37,840 bases of DNA from Gemmatimonadota bacterium (GTDB lineage: Bacteria; Gemmatimonadota; Gemmatimonadetes; Longimicrobiales; Gaopeijiaceae): NCBI GenBank assembly GCA_030827315.1, contig JAURER010000026.1, forward strand, positions 1 through 37,840, read 5' to 3'. Shown here piece after piece: positions 1,395 through 30,815 of this stretch (positions within the stretch are counted from its first letter, which is position 1; each line of letters starts with the position of its first letter). Below the pieces are notes generated by a model. That model saw nothing but the letters and a program-made list of their open reading frames with translations. It was not told the DNA's origin and made no database searches. The translations under genes and the position numbers were made by a program.

Positions 1395-2762
1395 ATGTCT
1401 TTCCAGGCGATCGACCCCGCTTCCGGCGAGAGGATCGCCGACGTACCGACGGCGACCCACGACCAGGTCCTCGCGGCTCTGGAGGGTTGCAGCGCGGCGC
1501 AGCGGCCCTGGGCGCTGCGGCCGGTCCCCGAGCGCTGCGTGCCCGTGCGCCGGCTCGGAGTGCTCCTCCGAGAGCGCCGTGACGAGCTCGCTCTGCTCAT
1601 GGCGTCGGAAATGGGCAAGCCGGTCGGTCAGGGCGCCGCCGAGGCCGAAAAGTGCGCCTGGGTGTGCGACTACTACGCCGACCACGCCGAGCGCTTCCTC
1701 GCTCCGGTACCCGCGGAGACCGACGCCTCCCGCAGCTACTGGACGTATCGCCCGCTCGGCATCGTGCTCGGCATCATGCCGTGGAACTTTCCGCTCTGGC
1801 AGGTCGTCCGGTACGCCGTGCCCGCGATGGTGGCGGGAAACGGCGCGCTCCTGAAGCACGCGCCGAGCGTGCCCGGCTGTGCCCGGGCGCTCCACGACCT
1901 GTTCCGCGACGCCGGATTCCCGGAGGGACTCTTCGCGAACGTCTTCGCGGATCTGGAGACCACGGGCGCGCTGATCGACCATCCGCTCGTGCGGGCGGTG
2001 AGTCTCACCGGCAGCGTCCGGGCCGGGCGGTCCGTCGCGGAACGCGCCGGACGCAACCTGAAGAAGTGCGTGCTCGAGCTCGGGGGGAGCGATCCCTCGG
2101 TCGTCCTGGAGGATGCCGACCTGGAGCTGGCCGTCGCGAGCTGCGCGCAGGGCCGGTTCTTGAATGCCGGGCAGAGCTGCATCGCGGCCAAGCGGTTCGT
2201 GGTGGTCGACGAGGTGCGCGAGGAATTCGAGGCGCGCATGAGCGAACGGGTCGGGTCGATCGTCATGGGCGAGCCATCCAATCCGTCCACGGAAATCGGC
2301 CCGATGGCGCGCGTCGACCTGCGCGATCAGCTCCACGACCAGGTCCTGCGCACCGTCGAAGCCGGTGCGCGCCTCGTGCAGGGCGGCACGATCCCCGACC
2401 GGCCGGGCGCGTGGTACCCGGCGACGCTGCTCGCGGACGTCGGGCCGGGCATGGCCGCCTACGCCGAGGAGCTGTTCGGTCCGGTTGCCGTGATCTTGCC
2501 CGCCAGGGACGAGCGCGACGCGGTCCGCATCGCGAACGACACGTCGTTCGGCCTCGGCGCCTCCGTCTACACCCGCGACGACGAGCGGGGCGAGCGCATC
2601 GCGGCCGAAATGTTCGAGGCCGGAAACTGTTTCGTGAACGGGATCGTGAAATCCGATCCGAGACTCCCGTTCGGGGGCGTCAAGGACAGCGGCTACGGCC
2701 GCGAGCTGTCTCCGATGGGGATCCTGGAATTCACGAACGCAAAGACCGTCTGGGTCCGCTGA
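1395..2762 (+). CDS. NAD(P)-dependent aldehyde dehydrogenase, succinate-semialdehyde (Sad/YneI) type
   Basis: This 455-aa cytosolic enzyme of the aldehyde dehydrogenase superfamily would oxidise succinate semialdehyde or a related omega-acid semialdehyde to the acid. The active-site set is intact: oxyanion Asn131 in GIMPWNFPLWQ, general base Glu228 in VLELGGSDPS and nucleophile Cys262 in NAGQSCIAAKRFVV. The closing motif PFGGVKDSGYGREL is present near the C-terminus. Its length and the NAGQSCIAAKRF signature fit the shorter YneI/Sad subgroup better than classical GabD. It is the first gene of a five-gene run, and gabT starts 17 bases after its stop, which supports the GABA-shunt assignment. 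No strong Shine-Dalgarno sequence precedes the ATG. Exact aldehyde specificity is inferred from the neighbour. Confidence 0.88.
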   Translation: MSFQAIDPASGERIADVPTATHDQVLAALEGCSAAQRPWALRPVPERCVPVRRLGVLLRERRDELALLMASEMGKPVGQGAAEAEKCAWVCDYYADHAERFLAPVPAETDASRSYWTYRPLGIVLGIMPWNFPLWQVVRYAVPAMVAGNGALLKHAPSVPGCARALHDLFRDAGFPEGLFANVFADLETTGALIDHPLVRAVSLTGSVRAGRSVAERAGRNLKKCVLELGGSDPSVVLEDADLELAVASCAQGRFLNAGQSCIAAKRFVVVDEVREEFEARMSERVGSIVMGEPSNPSTEIGPMARVDLRDQLHDQVLRTVEAGARLVQGGTIPDRPGAWYPATLLADVGPGMAAYAEELFGPVAVILPARDERDAVRIANDTSFGLGASVYTRDDERGERIAAEMFEAGNCFVNGIVKSDPRLPFGGVKDSGYGRELSPMGILEFTNAKTVWVR

Positions 2763-2779
2763 ATCCCCAATCGAATACG

Positions 2780-4117
2780 ATGAAGACCGAATCCTTGCTG
2801 GAGCGCCGCACCGCGGCGGTCCCCCGGGGGGCGTTCAATATCGCGCCCCTGTTCGCCGAGTCCGCTTCCGGATCGAAGATCCGCGACGTCGAGGGACGGG
2901 AGTTTCTGGACTTCTGCGGAGGCATCGGCGTGCTCAACGTCGGCCACTGCCACCCCGCAGTGGTCGCGGCCATCCAGGAGCAGGCCGCGAAACTCATCCA
3001 CAGCTGCTGGCACGTGGTGATGTACGAGCCGTACGTCCGCCTCGCGGAGCGGCTGAACGCCATCGTGCCGATGCCGGGTCCGAACAAGACCCTCTTTCTC
3101 AACAGCGGCGCCGAGGCGAATGAAAATGCGGTCAAGATCGCGCGGGCGTACACGAAGCGCACCGCGGTCGCCGTCTTCGAGCGGGGCTTTCACGGGCGCA
3201 CTCTCCTCACCCTCTCGATGACCGGGAAGGTGGACCCGTACCGGCGGGGCTTCGGGCCCTTCCTCCCCTCGGTCTTCCGCCTTCCGTACGAGCCCTTCTT
3301 CGCGCCGGCCGAAGCCGACTCGGCCACCGTCGCAGGCGAGGCGATGTCGGCGCTCGACCACCTCTTCTCGTATCAGACCGAGCCGGACCGTATCGCGTGC
3401 CTCGTGATCGAGCCCGTGCTCGGCGAGGGCGGATTCCTGCCGGTGCACCCGGCCGCCTTCCGCGTGCTGCGCGACGTGTGCACGGACCGCGGCATCCTCC
3501 TCGTTTCGGACGAGGTGCAGTCTGGCTTCGGGCGCTGCGGTGACTGGTTCGCCTGTCAGCGCTACGGCATCGTGCCGGACATGATCCTCATGGCGAAGTC
3601 GCTCGCCGCCGGCATGCCCCTGTCTGCGGTGACCGCCTCGGCCGAGATCATGGACGCGGCTCAGGTCGGCGGCCTCGGCGGCACGTATGGAGGCAACCCC
3701 GTCGCGCTGGCGGCCGCGCTTGCCGTGCTGGACGTGATGGAGCAGGAGCGGCTCGCCGAACGCGCGGAGGGCATCGGCGAGCGCGTCATGGAGCTGTTCG
3801 GACGGATGGCGGAGCGGAGTCCCTGCTTCGTGCGCCCTCGGGGCCTCGGCGCGATGCGTGGCATCGAGGTCGTCGATCCGTCGACGGGGGCACCCGACGC
3901 GGCACGGGCAGGCCGGCTGGTGACCGCGGCGCGGGAGCGTGGCCTGCTCATCATGACCGCGAGCGGGAACGTCATTCGAACGCTCATGCCCCTCACGATC
4001 TCCGATCAGGAGCTCGAGGCGGGTCTGCGGATGCTGGACGAGGCCGCGGCGTCCGTGGAAGAGTCCGAGGCCCCTGCGCGGGCGCCGGTCGAGGGTGCCG
4101 AGACGGTGTCGACGTGA
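2780..4117 (+). CDS. gabT: 4-aminobutyrate aminotransferase (class III PLP)
   Basis: This 445-aa aminotransferase would transfer the amino group of GABA (or 5-aminovalerate) to 2-oxoglutarate, giving succinate semialdehyde for the upstream dehydrogenase. It aligns by eye along its whole length with E. coli GabT: the start ERRTAAVPRG, DVEGREFLDFCGGIGVLN, the phosphate-binding NSGAEANENAVKIARAYTKR, Asp244 in DEVQSGFGR, PLP lysine Lys273 in MAKSLAAGMPLSAV, and GGTYGGNPVA. The ATG at 2780 matches the family N-terminus, although the frame is open far upstream as a shadow of the dehydrogenase gene. A short C-terminal tail of about 20 residues rich in Glu and Ala extends beyond the usual end. Its stop overlaps the start of the next gene by 4 bases, which indicates translational coupling. 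Confidence 0.88.
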   Translation: MKTESLLERRTAAVPRGAFNIAPLFAESASGSKIRDVEGREFLDFCGGIGVLNVGHCHPAVVAAIQEQAAKLIHSCWHVVMYEPYVRLAERLNAIVPMPGPNKTLFLNSGAEANENAVKIARAYTKRTAVAVFERGFHGRTLLTLSMTGKVDPYRRGFGPFLPSVFRLPYEPFFAPAEADSATVAGEAMSALDHLFSYQTEPDRIACLVIEPVLGEGGFLPVHPAAFRVLRDVCTDRGILLVSDEVQSGFGRCGDWFACQRYGIVPDMILMAKSLAAGMPLSAVTASAEIMDAAQVGGLGGTYGGNPVALAAALAVLDVMEQERLAERAEGIGERVMELFGRMAERSPCFVRPRGLGAMRGIEVVDPSTGAPDAARAGRLVTAARERGLLIMTASGNVIRTLMPLTISDQELEAGLRMLDEAAASVEESEAPARAPVEGAETVST

Positions 4118-4995
4118 GGCCGTTCGCCATCGCCGGGATGCAGCTCGAGGTGCGGCAGAACCTCGGATCGCTCGATGCGTTCGAGGAGAAGCTCGACAGG
4201 CTCGTCGCGAACTTCCCCTGGGTCCAGATGGTCCTGCTCTCCGAGCTCTGCCTGCGGGGGCAGAACCTGCAGTCCGCCGAGCCGATGCCCGGACCGACGG
4301 AGGCTGATCTGTGCCGCATGGCCGCGAAGCATGGCATCTGGTTCGTGCCGGGCTCGCTCTACGAGCAGGTCGGAGAGACGATCTACAACACGACGCCGGT
4401 CATCGATCCGGAGGGCCGGGTCGTGGGCAGGCACCGCAAGCTGTTCCCCTTCGTGCCCTATGAGACCGGCGTCACCGCCGGGTCGGAGCCTCTCGTCTTC
4501 GACGTGCCCGACGTCGGGCGCTTCGGTATCTCTATCTGTTACGACATGTGGTTTCCGGAGACGTCTCGCTGGCTCGTCTCGATGGGTGCCGAGGTGATTC
4601 TTCGTCCGGCGCTCACCGACACGATCGATCGGGAGATCGAGCTGGCGATGGTGCGGGCGACGGCGGCGCAGAATCAGTGTTTCGTCCTCGACGTGAATGG
4701 ACTCGGGGACGGGGGGGTCGGCCGCTCCATCTTCGTGGGCCCGGCCGGAGACGTTCTGTACGAGGCGAGCACGCATCCCGAAGACATCCCCATGGAAATC
4801 GACCTCGACCGGGTCACGCGAAGCCGCGAGATCGGGCTTCGTGGCCTCGGACAGCCGCTGAAGAGTTTCCGCGATCGCACATTCGACTTCCCGCAGTACG
4901 CTCCGGGGCATCGTTCGGAGGCGCTCGACGCCCTCGGGCCGCTGCGCAAGCCGCATCGCGGGAGCGCGGCCGGACTTCGCGGTGTTCGCCCATGA
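4114..4995 (+). CDS. Carbon-nitrogen hydrolase (nitrilase-superfamily amidase)
   Basis: This 293-aa cytosolic amidase of the nitrilase superfamily hydrolyses a C-N bond in an amide. The catalytic triad is readable: Glu44 in LLSELCLRG, Lys109 in GRHRKLFPF and Cys142 in ISICYDMWFPE. The length is typical, with a short polar tail after QYAPG. The start is GTG 4114, embedded in the gabT stop (GTGA), and its own stop overlaps the next ATG (ATGA), so it is coupled on both sides. Within a GabT/semialdehyde-dehydrogenase operon it would plausibly release an omega-amino acid or free an acyl group from an amide made by the operon's ATP-grasp enzyme, as PuuD does in the Puu pathway with an unrelated fold. 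It does not look like a canonical N-carbamoylputrescine amidase. The substrate is unknown. Confidence 0.85.
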   Translation: MRPFAIAGMQLEVRQNLGSLDAFEEKLDRLVANFPWVQMVLLSELCLRGQNLQSAEPMPGPTEADLCRMAAKHGIWFVPGSLYEQVGETIYNTTPVIDPEGRVVGRHRKLFPFVPYETGVTAGSEPLVFDVPDVGRFGISICYDMWFPETSRWLVSMGAEVILRPALTDTIDREIELAMVRATAAQNQCFVLDVNGLGDGGVGRSIFVGPAGDVLYEASTHPEDIPMEIDLDRVTRSREIGLRGLGQPLKSFRDRTFDFPQYAPGHRSEALDALGPLRKPHRGSAAGLRGVRP

Positions 4996-7709
4996 GCGAC
5001 ACCATCAAGGTCCGCCGACCCTCGTTGAGCGGCTACTACGCCGCGCGCCGCGAACGTACGGACGCGTGGCAACGGCTCAAGACGCTCGCCGACCAGTGGG
5101 AGGAGGAAGGCCGGTCCGCCAAGCTGGAACGCCAGATCCGCGAGGAACTCGAGGAGCTGGAGCGACTCGAGGCATACTTCGCCTATCCGGGCAAGGACGT
5201 CGTCGGGCGCCTCCGCGACTTCGACGCCCGGGGAGACCAGACGTCGTTCGCGCGGCTGGCACATTTCGTGGTGCGCATGCTCGTGAGTCACGCGTTCCGC
5301 ATGTATCTCGACGAGGACGAGACGAGCTCGTGGCCGGAGCCGCAGGGGGCGGCACCGCTTCCTGTTCACCCGGGGCTGGTGGAGGACGAGCGGCCGTACT
5401 TCGAGGTCCTCGTCGTCGACGACCTCACCACCGCCGAAGAGGATACCCTCATCGAGCGGCTCCGGGAGTTCCGCTCGGACGAGGACGACTTCGTCTACGA
5501 CATCGTCATCGTTCCGTCGTTCGAGGACGCGCTCATCGGGGTCCTCCTGAACTACCACGTGCAGAGCGTCGTGGTGCGCTACGGCTTTCCGCTCGAGTCG
5601 AAAAACCGGTTCACCGTGCTCGACCGGACGCTGGCGCAGTTCAACGCCTCGCGTCTCGAAGAGGCGGAGGTGGGCATCGCCCTGGGCAAGGCGATCCAGG
5701 CTCTGCGGCCCGAGCTGGACCTCTTTCTGGTCACGGACGCGCCGGTCGAAACGCTGGCCGGCAAGAGCGGTTCGACGTTCGCCCGCGTCTTCTTCCGCCA
5801 GGAGGACTATCGGGAGCTGCACGACTCGATCCTGAAGGGGATCGAGCGCCGCTTCGACACGCCCTTCTTCTCGGCGCTCAAGGACTACAGCCACAAGCCG
5901 ACGGGTGTCTTCCATGCGCTCCCGATCGCGCGCGGGAAGTCGGTTACGAAGTCGCACTGGATCCGCGAGATGGAGGACTTCTTCGGACCGGGCGCCTTCA
6001 TGTCGGAGACGTCCGCCACGACGGGTGGACTCGACTCGCTCCTGCACCCGCACGGTTCGCTGCGTGACGCGCAGGATGCCGCCGCGCGAGCGTTCGGTGC
6101 GGAGCGCACGTATTTCGTCACGAACGGCACCTCGGCGGCGAACAAGATCGTGCTCCAGGCCCTGGCCGGGCCGGGCGACATCGTGCTCGCCTCGCGCGAC
6201 TGTCACCAGTCGCACCACTACGGCATCGCGCTCACCGGGGCGCAGCCCGTCTACCTGAACCCCTACCCGCTGACGCCGTTCTCTTTCTACGGGGGCGTCC
6301 CGCTCTCGGAGATCAAGCGCGAGCTCCTGAACCTGCGTGCGGCCGGCAAGCTCGCTCGGGTGAAGGTGCTCCTCCTCACGAACTGCACCTTCGACGGGAT
6401 CGTCTACAACCCCGAGCGTGTGATGGAGGAGGTTCTGGCCATCCACCCGGACATCGCCTTCGTCTGGGACGAGGCGTGGTTCGCCTTCGGGTACTTCACG
6501 CCGATCACCCGGCGACGGGTGGCGATGGACGCCGCCCAGCAGCTACGACGGCGTCTGCAGAGTTCCGAATACCGAGAGAAGTACGCGAAGTGGCGCCAGG
6601 AATTCGACGCGAAGGAGGGCGAGGGCAAGTGGATGGACCGGCTGCGGCCGGATCCGGCCGCGGCCAAGGTGCGGGTCTATTCCACGCAGTCGACGCACAA
6701 GACCCTGACGAGCTTCCGGCAGGGGTCCATGATCCACGTGCGTGATCAGGAGTTCGAGCGCCGCGTCGCCGAGTCGTTCCAGCAGGCCTACCTGACGCAC
6801 ACGTCGACGTCGCCGTCCTACCCGATCCTGGCTTCGCTCGACATCGGTCGGCGCCAGGTGGAGCTGGAGGGATACGAGCTGGTCCAGGGGGCGATCGAGC
6901 AGGCGATGATCCTTCGCGAGCGCATCAACGGCCATGCGGGCATCGGGCGCTTCTTCCGTATGCTGTCGCCCGAGGACCTGATCCCCGCCGAATTCCGGCC
7001 CTCGGGCTTCCAGAGCTACAAGGCGGCACGAACGGACTGGAAGGGGATGGACCGGGCATGGGAGGAGGACGAGTTCTGTCTCGACCCCACGCGGCTTACC
7101 CTCTTCGTCGGCCGGACCGGCATCGAGGGTGACGCGTTCAAGAAGCGCCTCATGGACGACTACGACATCCAGGTCAACAAGACGAGCCGCAACACGCTCC
7201 TCTTCATGACGCACATCGGGACGTCGCGGGGTTCGGTCGCGTATCTGATCGACGTGCTCGCGCGGCTCTCCGACGAGCTGGCGGAAACCGCAGCCAACGA
7301 AAGCGAGCAGCGTGCCGAGCTCAGGCGTCGGCGGGTCGCGAACCTGGTGGAGAAGCTTCCCCCGCTGCCCGATTTCTCGTCGTTCCACGAGGCCTTCCGC
7401 ACGGACGCCGACCCGACCACGCGGGAGGGCAACCTCTTCCGGGCATTCCATCGCTCGAACGACCCCTCGCAGGTTCGGTACATGCCGCTGGACGCCGATC
7501 TGCGTGCGAAGCTCGCCGCGGGTGACACGCTCGTGTCGGCGTCGTTCGTCACACCGTACCCGCCGGGCTTCCCGGTGCTGGTGCCGGGGCAGACGCTCTC
7601 CGAGGAGATCGTGCACTACCTGTCGGCGGTGGACGTGAAGGAGATCCACGGATACGACCCGGAGCTGGGCCTCCGGCTGTTTACGGCAGAGGCTCTGGAG
7701 GGCCGATGA
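4992..7709 (+). CDS. Orn/Lys/Arg decarboxylase-like PLP enzyme, extended (905 aa)
   Basis: This is a large fold-type I PLP enzyme of the ornithine/lysine/arginine decarboxylase family. Residues about 1-125 form a charged helical N-terminal extension. Residues about 130-290 resemble the receiver-like wing domain (FEVLVVDDLTTAEEDTLIER). The major domain follows with SETSATTGGLDSLLHPHG, FGAERTYFVTNGTSAANKIV, the stacking histidine in SRDCHQSHHYG, cofactor Asp in VWDEAWFAFG, and PLP lysine Lys570 in STQSTHKTLTSFRQGSMIHV. The C-terminal region carries FVTPYPPGFPVLVPGQ, typical of the family's last domain. At 905 aa it is longer than the roughly 710-755 aa inducible decarboxylases. An insertion of about 60 residues lies between the Asp and Lys motifs (around RRVAMDAAQQLRRRLQSSEY). 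ATG 4992 overlaps the preceding stop; the open frame upstream is a shadow. The amino-acid substrate cannot be read. Confidence 0.85.
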   Translation: MSDTIKVRRPSLSGYYAARRERTDAWQRLKTLADQWEEEGRSAKLERQIREELEELERLEAYFAYPGKDVVGRLRDFDARGDQTSFARLAHFVVRMLVSHAFRMYLDEDETSSWPEPQGAAPLPVHPGLVEDERPYFEVLVVDDLTTAEEDTLIERLREFRSDEDDFVYDIVIVPSFEDALIGVLLNYHVQSVVVRYGFPLESKNRFTVLDRTLAQFNASRLEEAEVGIALGKAIQALRPELDLFLVTDAPVETLAGKSGSTFARVFFRQEDYRELHDSILKGIERRFDTPFFSALKDYSHKPTGVFHALPIARGKSVTKSHWIREMEDFFGPGAFMSETSATTGGLDSLLHPHGSLRDAQDAAARAFGAERTYFVTNGTSAANKIVLQALAGPGDIVLASRDCHQSHHYGIALTGAQPVYLNPYPLTPFSFYGGVPLSEIKRELLNLRAAGKLARVKVLLLTNCTFDGIVYNPERVMEEVLAIHPDIAFVWDEAWFAFGYFTPITRRRVAMDAAQQLRRRLQSSEYREKYAKWRQEFDAKEGEGKWMDRLRPDPAAAKVRVYSTQSTHKTLTSFRQGSMIHVRDQEFERRVAESFQQAYLTHTSTSPSYPILASLDIGRRQVELEGYELVQGAIEQAMILRERINGHAGIGRFFRMLSPEDLIPAEFRPSGFQSYKAARTDWKGMDRAWEEDEFCLDPTRLTLFVGRTGIEGDAFKKRLMDDYDIQVNKTSRNTLLFMTHIGTSRGSVAYLIDVLARLSDELAETAANESEQRAELRRRRVANLVEKLPPLPDFSSFHEAFRTDADPTTREGNLFRAFHRSNDPSQVRYMPLDADLRAKLAAGDTLVSASFVTPYPPGFPVLVPGQTLSEEIVHYLSAVDVKEIHGYDPELGLRLFTAEALEGR

Positions 7710-9109
7710 AGCAGATCCTGAGGGGCCTGTCCGAGATCCGCGGCTACTTCTTCCGCGACGAGACGCCGACCTGGTACATCTGCGCCACGCCGTACACGCT
7801 GCTGGGCATGGACGAGTGGGTGCGGGGTTTCCGCTTCGTCTCGTACGCGGACTGCTTCGACGGGCGGCACCCCCGGGTCTTCGTCCCTCCGCAGGACATC
7901 GACGAGACCTTTCCCTACGAGCTGCTCGAGGACATGAACAACGACCTGCTGCGGCGCGCGGACGTGCAGGCGCACATCCGGCGTTTCGGCCCCGGGCGAG
8001 CGCTGTTCATGATGTTCGACGACACCACGCGCGCGCTCGCGGCCGACCTCGACCTGGATCTGATTCTTCCCGAGGCGCACCTGCGGCGCATGGTCGACGA
8101 CAAGGTCGAGGCGACCCGCATCGGGGACCGGGCCGGCGTCCCCAGCGTGCCGAACGCGCTCGGTCGCGCCGGCAGCTGGAGCGAGTTGCAGGCGCTCGCG
8201 AAGGGGCTGGGCCCCGACCTCGTCGTGCAGACTCCGTTCGGCGACAGCGGTACCACCACGTTCTTCGTCTCGTCCGAGTCCGAATTCGACCGCTACGCGG
8301 GCGCGATCGTCGCCGAGCCCGAGATCAAGGTCATGAAGCGCATCCGACCCGTGCAGGCGGCCATCGAGGGGTGCGTCACGCGGCAGGGCACGATCGTGGG
8401 GCCGCTCATGACGGAGGTGATCGGCTTCGACGAGCTGACCCCGTTCCGTGGCGGGTGGGCAGGCAACGAGGCGACGACCGGCGCGTTCACCGACGCGCAG
8501 CGCCAGGCCGCGAGCAAGGGGACAGCCCGGTTCGGTGACGCGCTTCGTGCGCTCGGCTACCGCGGGTACTTCGAGATCGACTGGCTCATCGACCAGGACA
8601 CGGACGAGGTCTACCTGGGCGAGGTCAACCCGAGGCTGAGCGGGGCCAGCCCGCTCACCAACCTGGCGGCCTTCGCGCACGCCGACGCGCCGCTCTTCCT
8701 CTTCCATCTGCTGGAATACTCGGGCGTCGAATTCGAGCTCGACGTCGATCGTATGAACACGCGCTGGCGCGATCCCGACAACCTGGACGACTGGAGTCAG
8801 CTCATCCTCAAGCGGACCGAGGACTCGACGGTCCGTCTCACCGGGGCGCCTCAGAGCGGCGTCTGGCGTCTGGAGCATGACGGGAGCGCGACCTTTCTCT
8901 TCCCGCAGACGCACCGGCGCACCGTCGACGGCGAAGACCAGGCGTTCTTCCTCCGGATTCCGAGGGTGGGGGACCGGGTGAACTTCGCCGACGACCTCGG
9001 CATCCTCGTCTTCCGCGGGCGCACGATGACCGAGGACGGCGGGCTCACCGACCGGGCGAACGCGTGGGTCAATGCGATCCGCCGCCACTTCGAGGGGGAG
9101 CCGGTCTAG
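7706..9109 (+). CDS. ATP-grasp superfamily ligase (biotin-carboxylase-like fold)
   Basis: This 467-aa protein looks like an ATP-grasp carboxylate-amine ligase. Residues about 1-120 form an alpha/beta pre-ATP domain. The central part has the ATP-grasp features LVVQTPFGDSGTTTFFV (flexible P-loop-like segment), IKVMKRI (candidate ATP lysine) and YFEIDWLIDQDTDEVYLGEVNPRLSG, where the D-x-(n)-E-x-N pattern supplies Mg2+ ligands. The C-terminal 130 residues form an extra domain with no recognised relatives. The ATG overlaps the decarboxylase stop (ATGA), so the two are almost certainly co-translated and probably act on the same metabolite. The likely reaction is ATP-dependent acylation of an amine or amino acid. 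No biotinyl domain or carboxyltransferase lies nearby, so a true biotin carboxylase is unlikely. It is followed 3 bases later by a convergent gene. Confidence 0.75.
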   Translation: MKQILRGLSEIRGYFFRDETPTWYICATPYTLLGMDEWVRGFRFVSYADCFDGRHPRVFVPPQDIDETFPYELLEDMNNDLLRRADVQAHIRRFGPGRALFMMFDDTTRALAADLDLDLILPEAHLRRMVDDKVEATRIGDRAGVPSVPNALGRAGSWSELQALAKGLGPDLVVQTPFGDSGTTTFFVSSESEFDRYAGAIVAEPEIKVMKRIRPVQAAIEGCVTRQGTIVGPLMTEVIGFDELTPFRGGWAGNEATTGAFTDAQRQAASKGTARFGDALRALGYRGYFEIDWLIDQDTDEVYLGEVNPRLSGASPLTNLAAFAHADAPLFLFHLLEYSGVEFELDVDRMNTRWRDPDNLDDWSQLILKRTEDSTVRLTGAPQSGVWRLEHDGSATFLFPQTHRRTVDGEDQAFFLRIPRVGDRVNFADDLGILVFRGRTMTEDGGLTDRANAWVNAIRRHFEGEPV

Positions 9110-13732: not shown

Positions 13733-14140
13733 CTACTCCGGCTTGAACCCCTTTACGTGCTCGACGAGCTCGTGGATCTGGTCGTCGCTGTACATGGCGC
13801 CCCAGCCGACCATGAGAGGCGAGCGCCCGACGGCCGCGCCGCCCTCCTTGATCACCTTGAAGATGTGCTCGTCATCGCGGGTCTCCCAGAATGCGACGTC
13901 CGCGAAGCTGGCAGGGCGCGGATCAAGTGCCATGCCGGCGGGCCCGTCACCCATCCCGGTCGAGCCGTGGCAGGTGGAGCACACCGTATTGAAGGTCGCG
14001 GCCGCGTCGAACGCGGCCGGGGCGGGAGCCGCCGCCATGGGTTCAGCCGCCGGGGTGGTCGAAGGTGCATCCGCCGCGGGCTCGCTGCCACCGCAGGCCG
14101 CGAGCATCCCGGCCAGGGCAAATACCGAAAGTCGCTTCAT
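13733..14140 (-). CDS. Lipoprotein cytochrome c (single haem)
   Basis: This is a 135-aa envelope-anchored mono-haem c-type cytochrome. The N-terminus MKRLSVFALAGMLAACGG carries a lipobox with Cys16. Residues about 18-43 are a flexible Ala/Pro/Ser/Thr linker. The cytochrome fold follows, with haem motif CSTCH (Cys54, Cys57, His58), the GxGDGPAGMALDPRPASF segment seen in cbb3-CcoP-like and cytochrome c6-like domains, and a candidate distal Met in SPLMVGWGAMYSDDQI. The frame is open 23 codons further upstream, but only ATG 14140 gives the signal peptide. It probably carries electrons in the periplasm to a terminal oxidase or an extracytoplasmic reductase. No oxidase is encoded nearby. Confidence 0.88.
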   Translation of the reverse strand: MKRLSVFALAGMLAACGGSEPAADAPSTTPAAEPMAAAPAPAAFDAAATFNTVCSTCHGSTGMGDGPAGMALDPRPASFADVAFWETRDDEHIFKVIKEGGAAVGRSPLMVGWGAMYSDDQIHELVEHVKGFKPE

Positions 14141-27606: not shown

Positions 27607-29799
27607 ATGCCGCATCTCTCCGCGCGCCTCCGGGCTCGAGCCGGGCGACTCTGCGTCGTCGCGGTCGCGCTCCTCGCTGCAGCGGGCGATGCGTCCGCGC
27701 AGCGTGTGCGAGGCGTTCCCGAGGCGCTATTCCGCGAAGTGATGCCGGAGGCCCAGCGCTTCGCCGGGGTGGACGGCGACCCGCCCGTGATCCGCGCCTA
27801 TCGGACGTCGAGCCAGGGGGCCGAAACCCTCTACGGGTACGTATTTCTTACGTCCGATCTCCCGCCGGAGCAGTTCGGCTACAGCGGCCCGATCGAGGCG
27901 CTCGTGGGCATGCGCCCCGACGGCACGCTCACCGGAATCCACGTGACCGACTACATGGAGTCGTACATGCGCAGCATGGGCGACTTCCTGAGCACCCCGG
28001 GCTTCCAGGAGCAGTTCGCGGGCAAGCACATCGGTGATCCCTTCCAGCTGTGGGGCGACATCGAGGGCATCTCTCGCGTCTCCATCAGCGTGCGTGCGCT
28101 TTCACGCGGTGTGCGCGACTCGGCGCGCCGGGTCGCGGCCGCGTACGGCGATGCGCCGGAATTCGAGGCCGGCGAAGCACTCGTCGACCCGGTCGGCCTT
28201 TCCTGGTTCGACCTCCGGCAGCGAGGCTTCGTGCGCCGGTTCGAGGTCACGGAGCCCGGCGAGGGCTCGGCCGGCATCGCGCTCGCATTCATCGAGAACG
28301 ACCGTCTCGGAGCGTACTACTTTGGAAGCCAGCTCTACGAGCGGGCCCAGGCATCGTCGGCGCGCCGGGGCGGTGCGGACAACCTTATGCTGTATGCCAT
28401 CGACGGCTCCCGGCTGAGGCTTTTCCGACAGCAGGGCTGGTCGATCGAGCAGGACGGGGACACGACGGCCGTGGATCCGCGCAACGTCATCTCGCTGGGT
28501 CTTCCGTCCGGAGGCATCGTTGCGGGCGAGGCCACGATGGTCGGAATCATGCTCGTCGATTCCGCGGTCGACGTCTCGCGACCGTTCACCTTCGTCTACG
28601 ACCTCGGCGCACTCGGCGTACACGCCCTCGAGTACAGGAGTCAGGAGGCCCGCCGCGCGATCGCGGAGGCGGAAGCTGCGGCGCAGGCCATGGCCATGGC
28701 CACCGAGGCTGCCCCCTTGGACGAGGCGCGCGCAGGGGAGGTCGAGGGCGGGCGCGTGGAGCCCGAGCGGGTCGGCGCGGGAGTGGAGCCGGCCGTGACC
28801 GACGACGAACCGGGAGCGGTTGAGCCGGAGGCTGCCGTCGCGTCCTCCACGGACGGCGCCCCCGGGGGCGGATCCACGGCGTACGCGGGCGGCGAGCCTC
28901 TCGAGCCCCTCGCCCTTCCCGACTTCGTGCTGACGCAGGACGAGACCCTCCTTCAGCGCACTCTCGCCGGCACCTCGTGGACCCGCGTCGGCCTCATGGC
29001 ACTCGTCCTCGCGCTCGCCGTCGCCGCGTTCTTCACCAAGATCGTCGCGCTGCGCTGGATCGCACTGACGGTGACGCTCCTGGTTCTCGGGTTCGGGGAC
29101 GGGGGATTCCTGTCGGTGTCCCACATCACCAGCGGCATCTGGGCGGGTGTCGGGGTCTACGCCCGGGATCTTCCCCTTCTGCTCATGGTGACGTTCACGC
29201 TCGTCACCACCCTGGTGTGGGGCCGCGTCTTCTGCGGGTTCCTCTGTCCGTTCGGGGCACTGCAGGACTTCATCGACCGTTTCGTGCCGCGAACGTGGAA
29301 GCGCCCGCTTCCGAGCCCGATCCACGATCGCGCCCGATGGGTGAAGTACGTGATCCTCGCGGTCATCGTCCTGCCGGCCCTCGCCGGGAGTCACGTGAGC
29401 CTCTACCAGTACTTCGAGCCGTTCGGCACCGTCTTCTTCCGGAGCCCGTCGTTGCTCCTCTGGACCATCGCGCTCGCCTTTCTCGGGGCTTCGGTCGTGG
29501 TTCCGCGCTTCTACTGCCGCTACGCCTGTCCGCTGGGAGCCGCGCTCGGTCTGCTCTCCTTGGTCTCGCTCCGCCGCATCGGGCGGGTGGAGCAGTGCAC
29601 CCTGTGCACCGTGTGCGAGCAGAAGTGCCCGACCGGCGCCATCCGGCGCGCCGAGATCGACTTTCCGGAGTGCGTGCGGTGCAACGTGTGCGAGGTCCAG
29701 CTCCGGGACCGCACGGGCACGTGCCGACACGACATGGAGACGATCCGGCCTCGACTGGTGCAGCTGACGGTCACGGCCGGAGCGGGGGGCGAGGCATGA
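27607..29799 (+). CDS. NosR/RnfG-like membrane flavoprotein with Fe-S clusters
   Basis: This is a 730-aa inner-membrane electron-transfer protein. It has a signal peptide (about 1-32) and then a periplasmic FMN-binding domain (about 40-180). The covalent-flavin motif usually written SGAT-x-S appears as S156-R157-V158-S159 in GISRVSISVRAL. Next come a second periplasmic region, an Ala/Glu/Val-rich linker (about 350-430) and about six helices. In and after the helices lie the NosR/NapH-type clusters RVFCGFLCPFGALQDF and FYCRYACPLGAALG, then ferredoxin-type CTLCTVCEQKCPTGAI and CVRCNVCEVQ. The layout would move electrons across the membrane to a periplasmic flavin. No nos genes are present, so the acceptor is different. 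The stop overlaps the ATG of apbE, the enzyme that attaches FMN. Confidence 0.87.
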   Translation: MPHLSARLRARAGRLCVVAVALLAAAGDASAQRVRGVPEALFREVMPEAQRFAGVDGDPPVIRAYRTSSQGAETLYGYVFLTSDLPPEQFGYSGPIEALVGMRPDGTLTGIHVTDYMESYMRSMGDFLSTPGFQEQFAGKHIGDPFQLWGDIEGISRVSISVRALSRGVRDSARRVAAAYGDAPEFEAGEALVDPVGLSWFDLRQRGFVRRFEVTEPGEGSAGIALAFIENDRLGAYYFGSQLYERAQASSARRGGADNLMLYAIDGSRLRLFRQQGWSIEQDGDTTAVDPRNVISLGLPSGGIVAGEATMVGIMLVDSAVDVSRPFTFVYDLGALGVHALEYRSQEARRAIAEAEAAAQAMAMATEAAPLDEARAGEVEGGRVEPERVGAGVEPAVTDDEPGAVEPEAAVASSTDGAPGGGSTAYAGGEPLEPLALPDFVLTQDETLLQRTLAGTSWTRVGLMALVLALAVAAFFTKIVALRWIALTVTLLVLGFGDGGFLSVSHITSGIWAGVGVYARDLPLLLMVTFTLVTTLVWGRVFCGFLCPFGALQDFIDRFVPRTWKRPLPSPIHDRARWVKYVILAVIVLPALAGSHVSLYQYFEPFGTVFFRSPSLLLWTIALAFLGASVVVPRFYCRYACPLGAALGLLSLVSLRRIGRVEQCTLCTVCEQKCPTGAIRRAEIDFPECVRCNVCEVQLRDRTGTCRHDMETIRPRLVQLTVTAGAGGEA

Positions 29800-30815
29800 C
29801 CCGCGGGTCGTCCGACCGCGGGGGTCGCGTGACACGCCGCGAGGCCCTGCGCATCACCGCCGTCACGGGCGTCGCGGTGGCGTTCGGGGGTGGCATCGCC
29901 ACCGCGCTCTGGCGCCAGCTGGGCCTGCATCGGGTCAGCGAGACACGTTCGCTCATGGGCACCATCGTCACGCTCACCGTCGTCCATCCCGAAGCCGGCG
30001 AGGCTCGGCGCATGATCGGCGCGGGCTTCGCGGAGATGCTCCGGCTCGAGTCGATCCTGAGCCGACATCGCCCGGACACGCCCGTGGCCACGCTCAACGT
30101 CACCGGGTCGTTGGAGCGACCTCCGGCGGAACTCGTGGCGGTCCTCGCGCACGCCCGGTCCGTCTCACGCGCCAGTGCAGGGGCGTTCGACGTGACCGTG
30201 CTTCCTCTGGTCCGCCTCTGGGAGGCGTCCTTCACGGCCACGGGCCGCCCGCCCTCGGACGACGCCATCGAGACGACGCGCCGCCTCGTCGGTTACCGCC
30301 GCCTCGACGTGAGCGACGACCGAATCGCCTTCGCGCAGGCCGGAATGGCCCTGTCGCTGGACGGGATCGCCAAGGGGTTCGTGGTGGACCGCGCGATCGA
30401 GACCCTCGTGGCGCGCGGCGCGGACCGGGTTCTCGTTGACGCCGGAGGGGACATGGCGACGGCAGGCGAGGGTTCGCTCCGAGAGCCGTGGAGCGTCGGG
30501 ATCCAGGACCCGCACCGCCCGGGCGAAGTCGTGGACGTGGTCCGCCTCGCGGGCGAATGCGTCGCGACTTCGGGTGACTACCAGCAGTCGTTCACGCGTG
30601 ACCGGCGGTATCACCACATCGTCGACCCCCGCACCGGGCGGTCTCCGGAGGCGCTGAGTTCGGCCAGCGTCGTGGCACCTTCGGCGATGCAGGCCGATGC
30701 GCTCTCCACCGCGGTGATGGTGCTCGGGCCGCACGCGGGCGCCGCGCTCCTCGAGTCGACGCCAGGCGTGGCGGGTGTCATCGTAGACAAGGTGGGACGG
30801 CGGATCCGCACCTGA
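29796..30815 (+). CDS. apbE: FAD:protein FMN transferase ApbE
   Basis: This 339-aa exported flavin transferase takes FMN from FAD and links it to Ser/Thr in FMN-binding domains. Its ATG overlaps the stop of the NosR-like gene (ATGA), so that protein is the obvious substrate. The N-terminus (TRREALRITAVTGVAVAFGG) has a twin-arginine-like start and a hydrophobic stretch, consistent with Tat or Sec export. Family motifs are intact: RSLMGTIVTLTV, SAGAFDVTVLPLVRLW, LSLDGIAKGFVVD, LVDAGGDMATAG, CVATSGDYQQ, YHHIVDPRTGRSP and the Mg2+-binding ADALSTAVMVLG. The length is normal. Confidence 0.92.
   Translation: MTRGSSDRGGRVTRREALRITAVTGVAVAFGGGIATALWRQLGLHRVSETRSLMGTIVTLTVVHPEAGEARRMIGAGFAEMLRLESILSRHRPDTPVATLNVTGSLERPPAELVAVLAHARSVSRASAGAFDVTVLPLVRLWEASFTATGRPPSDDAIETTRRLVGYRRLDVSDDRIAFAQAGMALSLDGIAKGFVVDRAIETLVARGADRVLVDAGGDMATAGEGSLREPWSVGIQDPHRPGEVVDVVRLAGECVATSGDYQQSFTRDRRYHHIVDPRTGRSPEALSSASVVAPSAMQADALSTAVMVLGPHAGAALLESTPGVAGVIVDKVGRRIRT

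Follow-up and report, generated by a model that had tools for sequence, protein, structure and literature searches.

The closest described relatives of the gene pair analyzed here are the flavinylated NapH-like systems of Meheust et al. 2021 (PMC8238504), in which a Fer4_5 membrane protein with an N-terminal extracytosolic FMN domain is encoded beside apbE. Clusters with the alcohol oxidase ExaA are reported there, electron transport from an alcohol oxidase by way of a flavinylated NapH-like protein has been proposed, and the flavinylation motif is stated to be [S/T]GA[S/T]-like. The NosR protein of nitrous oxide reductase clusters has the same domain order, and RnfG and the related NqrC have a similar FMN domain fold. 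We found a pair of this kind in a window of 37,840 nucleotides, the whole stretch of DNA that was analyzed, from contig JAURER010000026.1 of a Gemmatimonadota bacterium (family Gaopeijiaceae; assembly GCA_030827315.1). The pair has the gene content that defines a NapH-like system (Fer4_5, PF12801, plus apbE or an FMN-binding gene), with PF12801 matched at 67.1 bits (cut-off 22) and ApbE adjacent. However, its cluster has no oxidoreductase partner and its attachment site lacks Gly-Ala. The protein class is already described, and the altered attachment site across the clade is a new variant of it. Our literature search found neither this clade-wide site change nor the genome-scale association of the subfamily with PQQ-type dehydrogenases in two phyla.

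The two genes encode a NosR/NapH-like protein (P0001) and an ApbE flavin transferase (P0002) (Table 1). The stop of the first and the start of the second share ATGA (29796-29799), an overlap of 4 bp, which bears out the translational coupling reported in an earlier note on this DNA. P0001 matched Fer4_5 in two stretches (Pfam, E = 1.3e-18) and FMN_bind at E = 3.1e-4, with 21.8 bits barely below the cut-off of 22; in a genome-wide search its FMN_bind match reached 26.6 bits, above the cut-off. An AlphaFold2 model built from 53 sequences (mean pLDDT 81, pTM 0.69) was found to contain, in order, an N-terminal helix, the FMN domain, a beta-sandwich, a linker of low confidence (about residues 378-446), membrane helices, and the C-terminal region. 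In structure comparisons, the FMN domain matched RnfG structures with Z of 12.9-14.2, the next entry having only 6.6; the best match was 9eri_G (Z 14.2, model residues 35-182). We did not name the second extracytoplasmic domain, as DUF4426, FetP/P19, and adaptin ears tied at Z of about 5-6.6, which is too low. P0001 probably carries electrons via a covalently attached flavin, and P0002 is probably the enzyme that would attach the FMN.

Table 1 Features of the gene pair and of the window.
Feature	Position	Strand	Basis or remark
NosR/NapH-like FMN and iron-sulfur membrane protein P0001, 730 aa	27607..29799	+	Pfam, NosR model, structure model
P0001 signal peptide region, residues 1-32	27607..27702	+	ASA-Q cleavage-like site by eye; hydrophobic stretch 12-30
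P0001 RnfG-like FMN_bind domain, residues 35-180	27709..28146	+	Structure match; Pfam 91-171
P0001 variant flavinylation motif S156-R157-V158-S159	28072..28083	+	Ser159 codon 28081-28083; sequence, alignments
P0001 second extracytoplasmic domain, residues 196-349, beta-sandwich, kinship uncertain	28192..28653	+	Structure model, best Z 6.6
P0001 membrane core, residues 458-661, C543xxxC547P and C637xxxC641P	28978..29589	+	Pfam, alignment, model
P0001 C-terminal ferredoxin-type region, Cys 664, 667, 670, 674, 689, 692, 695, 706	29596..29724	+	Pfam, alignment
ApbE flavin transferase P0002, 339 aa, twin-arginine signal (RREAL at 14)	29796..30815	+	Pfam, solved homologues
Small cytochrome c lipoprotein (lipobox LAAC, CSTCH)	13736-14140	-	Opposite strand to flavin pair

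P0001 is 32% identical to the NosR of Cupriavidus in the iron-sulfur core and 27% identical in the FMN domain, and it scored 120.6 bits against the NosR model, below the equivalog cut-off of 1000. Cupriavidus NosR has an SGAT site and is encoded beside nosZ, whereas P0001 has SRVS and belongs to a subfamily that is nearly exclusive with NosZ. The genome of the window gave no match to TIGR04246, the only NosZ model run. Among 96 genomes of the family, 52 encoded the NosR/NapH-like protein and 22 a NosZ above the TIGR04246 cut-off: one genome (G012) had both, 51 had the protein only, 21 NosZ only, and 23 neither. The near-exclusion had a Fisher p of 4e-8 (0.03 at the genus level); loci and genomes are related, so that these p values and the one given below overstate independence. 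Short NosZ matches below the cut-off in G001, G033, and G054, the first and last of which are carriers of the protein, were not counted. Because the protein and NosZ are nearly mutually exclusive, nitrous oxide is not the job of the protein, and a role as NosR in nitrous oxide respiration was rejected on this co-occurrence (1 of 52 carriers with NosZ). These results agree with the earlier note that the pair stands apart from a nos system, and the survey of homologues that it had called for did not find them always with nosZ. No separate RnfG or NqrC was recognized in the genome, the P0001 fusion being the only FMN_bind gene found there; RnfG and NqrC, by contrast, lack such a fusion to an iron-sulfur membrane core. 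The earlier remark that no Rnf genes are nearby held for the RnfG/NqrC subunit, which is what this search covered.

To compare loci, we scanned the contigs of genomes and retained the best 80 out of the 204 relatives, which together with the window gave 81 anchors. These best 80 came from Gemmatimonadota, Gammaproteobacteria MAGs, and one record labeled Chloroflexota. Taxonomic groups followed the record labels, and two loci were placed in neither group for the group and PQQ-distance counts: L056 (Gammaproteobacteria label, adjacent apbE) and L091 (Chloroflexota label). ApbE was adjacent in 27 of the 81 anchors according to gene calls and in two further ones (L041 and L058) according to a frame scan. 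Neither method found it in any of the 42 gammaproteobacterial loci, several of them truncated where a contig stops. This weighs against the account proposed below, although each of the 23 genomes searched from this group encodes an ApbE elsewhere. In total, ApbE was present in all 29 genomes searched (30 loci were given, of which L041 turned out to have an adjacent copy).

The neighbor families within the surveyed 10 kb flanks included two clusters of PQQ-type propellers, a cytochrome c, a protein combining heme and Cu2_monoox_C, a family of 333 residues, a redoxin, a TonB receptor, and peptidases. The window pair itself was flanked by an M28 peptidase gene upstream and an S9 peptidase gene downstream, and its close relatives have in common an M28 gene and an amine-oxidase-like gene but no redox partner; on these grounds a dedicated operon at the window was rejected. 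The cytochrome c lipoprotein that the earlier note had named as a conceivable partner is indeed encoded in the window, but about 13.5 kb from the flavin pair and beyond the surveyed flanks, so that the survey speaks neither for nor against it. Elsewhere in the window (1652-9109), genes for a class III aminotransferase, a carbon-nitrogen hydrolase, an Orn/Lys/Arg decarboxylase, and an ATP-grasp protein lie in a row that looks polyamine-like. Two of the neighbor families may be described further. The family of about 333 residues (L077:11923-12921 (-), L038:15431-16597 (-), and 21 further members) gave no hit in Pfam. In gammaproteobacterial loci its gene is often the one after the NosR-like gene, oriented the other way, and it adjoins a PQQ-type gene in the Gemmatimonadota loci L038 and L039. 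The family represented by L083:7618-8982 (-), which combines one heme motif (CVACH) with a weak match of the copper monooxygenase C type, has members close to the NosR-like gene in 23 loci.

The usual partners of the subfamily are most likely PQQ-type dehydrogenases. Of the 42 gammaproteobacterial loci, 26 have a PQQ-type gene no more than 10 kb away, where an assumed density of 25 per 3.2 Mb predicts about 5; among the 37 other loci (window included) the count is 8, where an assumed 12 per 3.2 Mb predicts about 2. Each of the 23 gammaproteobacterial carrier genomes searched had 12-38 PQQ matches. We also examined 95 genomes from the order of G099 (Pseudohongiella; Pseudomonadales per NCBI), where counts near 12, as in the family genomes, are to be read as at least 12. 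Three of the 95 carried the protein, with at least 12, at least 12, and at least 13 PQQ matches, and at least 12 were found in only 1 of the 92 others. In the family genomes, the median number of PQQ matches (counted at E 1e-20) was 8.5 in carriers versus 2 in non-carriers (genus-level p = 4e-4). Against the link, two of the 52 carriers (G028 and G068) had no match at this threshold, and some had just one or two. For the window itself, neither the 10 kb around the pair nor the nearest same-genus loci yielded a PQQ gene. Its genome contains five PQQ matches, and of the two that were inspected one is directly upstream of a cytochrome c' gene. The PQQ-type dehydrogenase genes of this genome include L115:8492-10672 and L114:445-2775. 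We infer a PQQ partner in this genome from the association seen in the subfamily. Two observations were made alongside. The gammaproteobacterial genomes G096-G118 show a striking expansion of PQQ-type dehydrogenases, 12 to 38 matches in about 2-4.5 Mb. On a contig of the window's genome that holds a PQQ-type gene, a further frame (L114:5564-7909 (-)) matched TPR and multiheme cytochrome c7/c554-like families.

We propose that the adjacent ApbE would link FMN to Ser159 through a phosphoester, even though Arg and Val occupy the positions where Gly and Ala are usual, and that the FMN domain, outside the cytoplasmic membrane, would exchange electrons with a periplasmic enzyme. Electrons from PQQ-type dehydrogenases would enter at the FMN domain and travel through the membrane core with its CxxxCP motifs and through the 4Fe-4S region, ending up in the quinone pool or the cytoplasm. 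The transfer through the core and the 4Fe-4S region is taken as following from the family, and the path and direction of the electrons are likewise a matter of inference, direction and partner being the weak points of the account. Taken as a whole, we consider the account to have about an even chance of being right. The earlier note had described a flavinyl electron line to an unknown acceptor; the line and its pairing with ApbE hold, but electron donors, the PQQ-type dehydrogenases, are likelier partners than such an acceptor.

The flavinylated conduit might instead run outwards, with a quinol or cytoplasmic donor reducing the FMN, which in turn would supply a reductase or redoxin of the periplasm. 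According to PMC8238504, flavinylated NapH-like proteins work in this direction in nitrous oxide and organohalide systems, and a redoxin gene was found near the NosR-like gene in 10 of 80 loci. However, no recognized respiratory reductase was found among the 20 neighbor-family representatives scanned (three of which had no Pfam match at all), and the strongest co-occurring enzymes are oxidizing ones, which makes outward flow unlikely. It is also somewhat improbable that the conduit serves a general periplasmic pool, such as soluble cytochrome c, and that the PQQ link merely reflects genomes rich in such enzymes. The lack of a dedicated redox neighbor at the window would fit a general pool, as would the contrasts within genera, where carriers in the mixed genera g5, g6, and g18 had no PQQ excess and those in g1 alone had slightly more. 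Against it, PQQ genes are near far above expectation in the gammaproteobacterial loci, and in 11 of the 26 PQQ-bearing ones the gene lies within 700 bp of the NosR-like gene.

The proposed flavin site departs from the usual one. Residues 153-159 of P0001 read E-G-I-S-R-V-S, and the exact ApbE-substrate consensus D-x-x-[ST]-G-A-[ST] (PMC12052999) was not found: three of its seven positions differ (Glu for Asp, Arg for Gly, Val for Ala), while the first Ser/Thr and the final Ser agree. The S-R-V-S-I-S noted earlier does begin at residue 156, so that Ser159 had been numbered correctly. An HMM profile alignment placed the motif upon TGAT of the RnfG 7zc6, and in the model a helix (159-180) starts at Ser159. 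We aligned the window with 52 of the 80 loci (53 rows), partial, frame-shifted, and closely similar rows having been dropped by judgment (L066 and L061 among them). Residue 159 was Thr in 42 rows and Ser in 11, hence Ser or Thr in all 53. Residue 157 was Arg in 36, Gly in 12, Gln in 4, and Ala in 1 (Arg or Gln in 40 of 53), and residue 158 was Ala in 37, Val in 15, and Ser in 1. SRAT was the most frequent quartet (23), followed by SRVS (8) and SGAT (6). Residue 156 was Ala in 5 of 53 rows; since it tolerates Ala, the attachment residue would be 159 rather than 156. D151 and the cluster cysteines were invariant except C667 (52 of 53, with one X). Over all 81 anchors, the 80 that are readable (L066 is frame-shifted) had Ser or Thr at 159, and at 157 Arg in 61, Gly in 14, Gln in 4, and Ala in 1; Arg157 occurred in 35 of 42 gammaproteobacterial rows and 26 of 38 other rows. 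A quick tree including Cupriavidus NosR required eight changes of state at residue 157. The altered motif is thus present as first described but is no oddity of one protein, being common to most relatives examined in two phyla. A point against attachment here is that, according to the review PMC12052999, G-to-A and A-to-V changes at the site lower the degree of flavinylation (about 50%), and Thr-to-Ser reduces it by 10 to 55%. Our literature search, with subscription papers largely outside it, found no report of an Arg-containing ApbE site or of a test of Arg there.

P0002 is a clear member of the ApbE family, with 260.1 bits against PF02424 (cut-off 25.6, E = 3.3e-77) and a best E of 9.8e-41 against solved FMN transferases. 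When aligned with the latter it has the conserved stretches MGT at 54, HHIVDP at 273, and ADALSTA at 300, whose catalytic roles are given in PMC12052999. Of the known kinds of ApbE substrate, which also include Flavodoxin_4 and FMN_red types, the search covered FMN_bind, DUF2271, and DUF3570. The window's genome (98% complete) has one recognizable FMN_bind gene, which is P0001, and one ApbE, and DUF2271 and DUF3570 are absent from it and from all 14 genomes of the genus; Ser159 is therefore the obvious target of the ApbE. Exactly one FMN_bind and one ApbE, side by side, were found in 5 of the 14 genus genomes (G000, the window's genome, with G041, G061, G086, and G220). G218 has one of each on the same contig, its FMN_bind frame of 270 residues being too short for a NosR/NapH-like protein; no match of either kind was found in G091, G219 (63% complete) matched ApbE but not FMN_bind, and the other six have more than one FMN_bind and/or more than one ApbE. 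From indirect evidence of this kind, we regard it as likely that FMN is attached to Ser159, the residue that the earlier note had put forward as a possible attachment point. A degenerate site, with the FMN domain not flavinylated and ApbE retained for another substrate, would explain why the published consensus is missed but is very improbable, because Ser or Thr at 159 in every aligned row speaks against a dead FMN site and no gene of the three other-substrate types searched accompanies P0001 in its genome.

We compared ApbEs with the sites they accompany, using 34 distinct, long enough sequences from 48 site/ApbE pairs. Among the 24 distinct ApbEs with a non-Gly site, 20 had Glu, Asp, or Gln at residue 49, versus 1 among the 10 with a Gly site; this position was chosen post hoc among all columns, and the tree yields only one independent starred pair. 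The covariation is suggestive and not significant on the tree. It is possible, though doubtful, that the ApbE of this clade has a shifted recognition rule, [ST]-[RQ]-[AV]-[ST] instead of [ST]-G-A-[ST], perhaps via residue 49, and that the basic residue beside the target hydroxyl then tunes attachment or flavin potential.

Flavinylation of Ser159 would mean that the rule now used to predict ApbE substrates is too narrow, and that searches for a Gly-Ala motif overlook a clade spanning two phyla. In that case the clade could be a source of a further natural specificity, a second one, for use in flavin tagging. It could also provide a testable flavin route from PQQ-type dehydrogenases to the membrane in uncultured Gemmatimonadota and Gammaproteobacteria.
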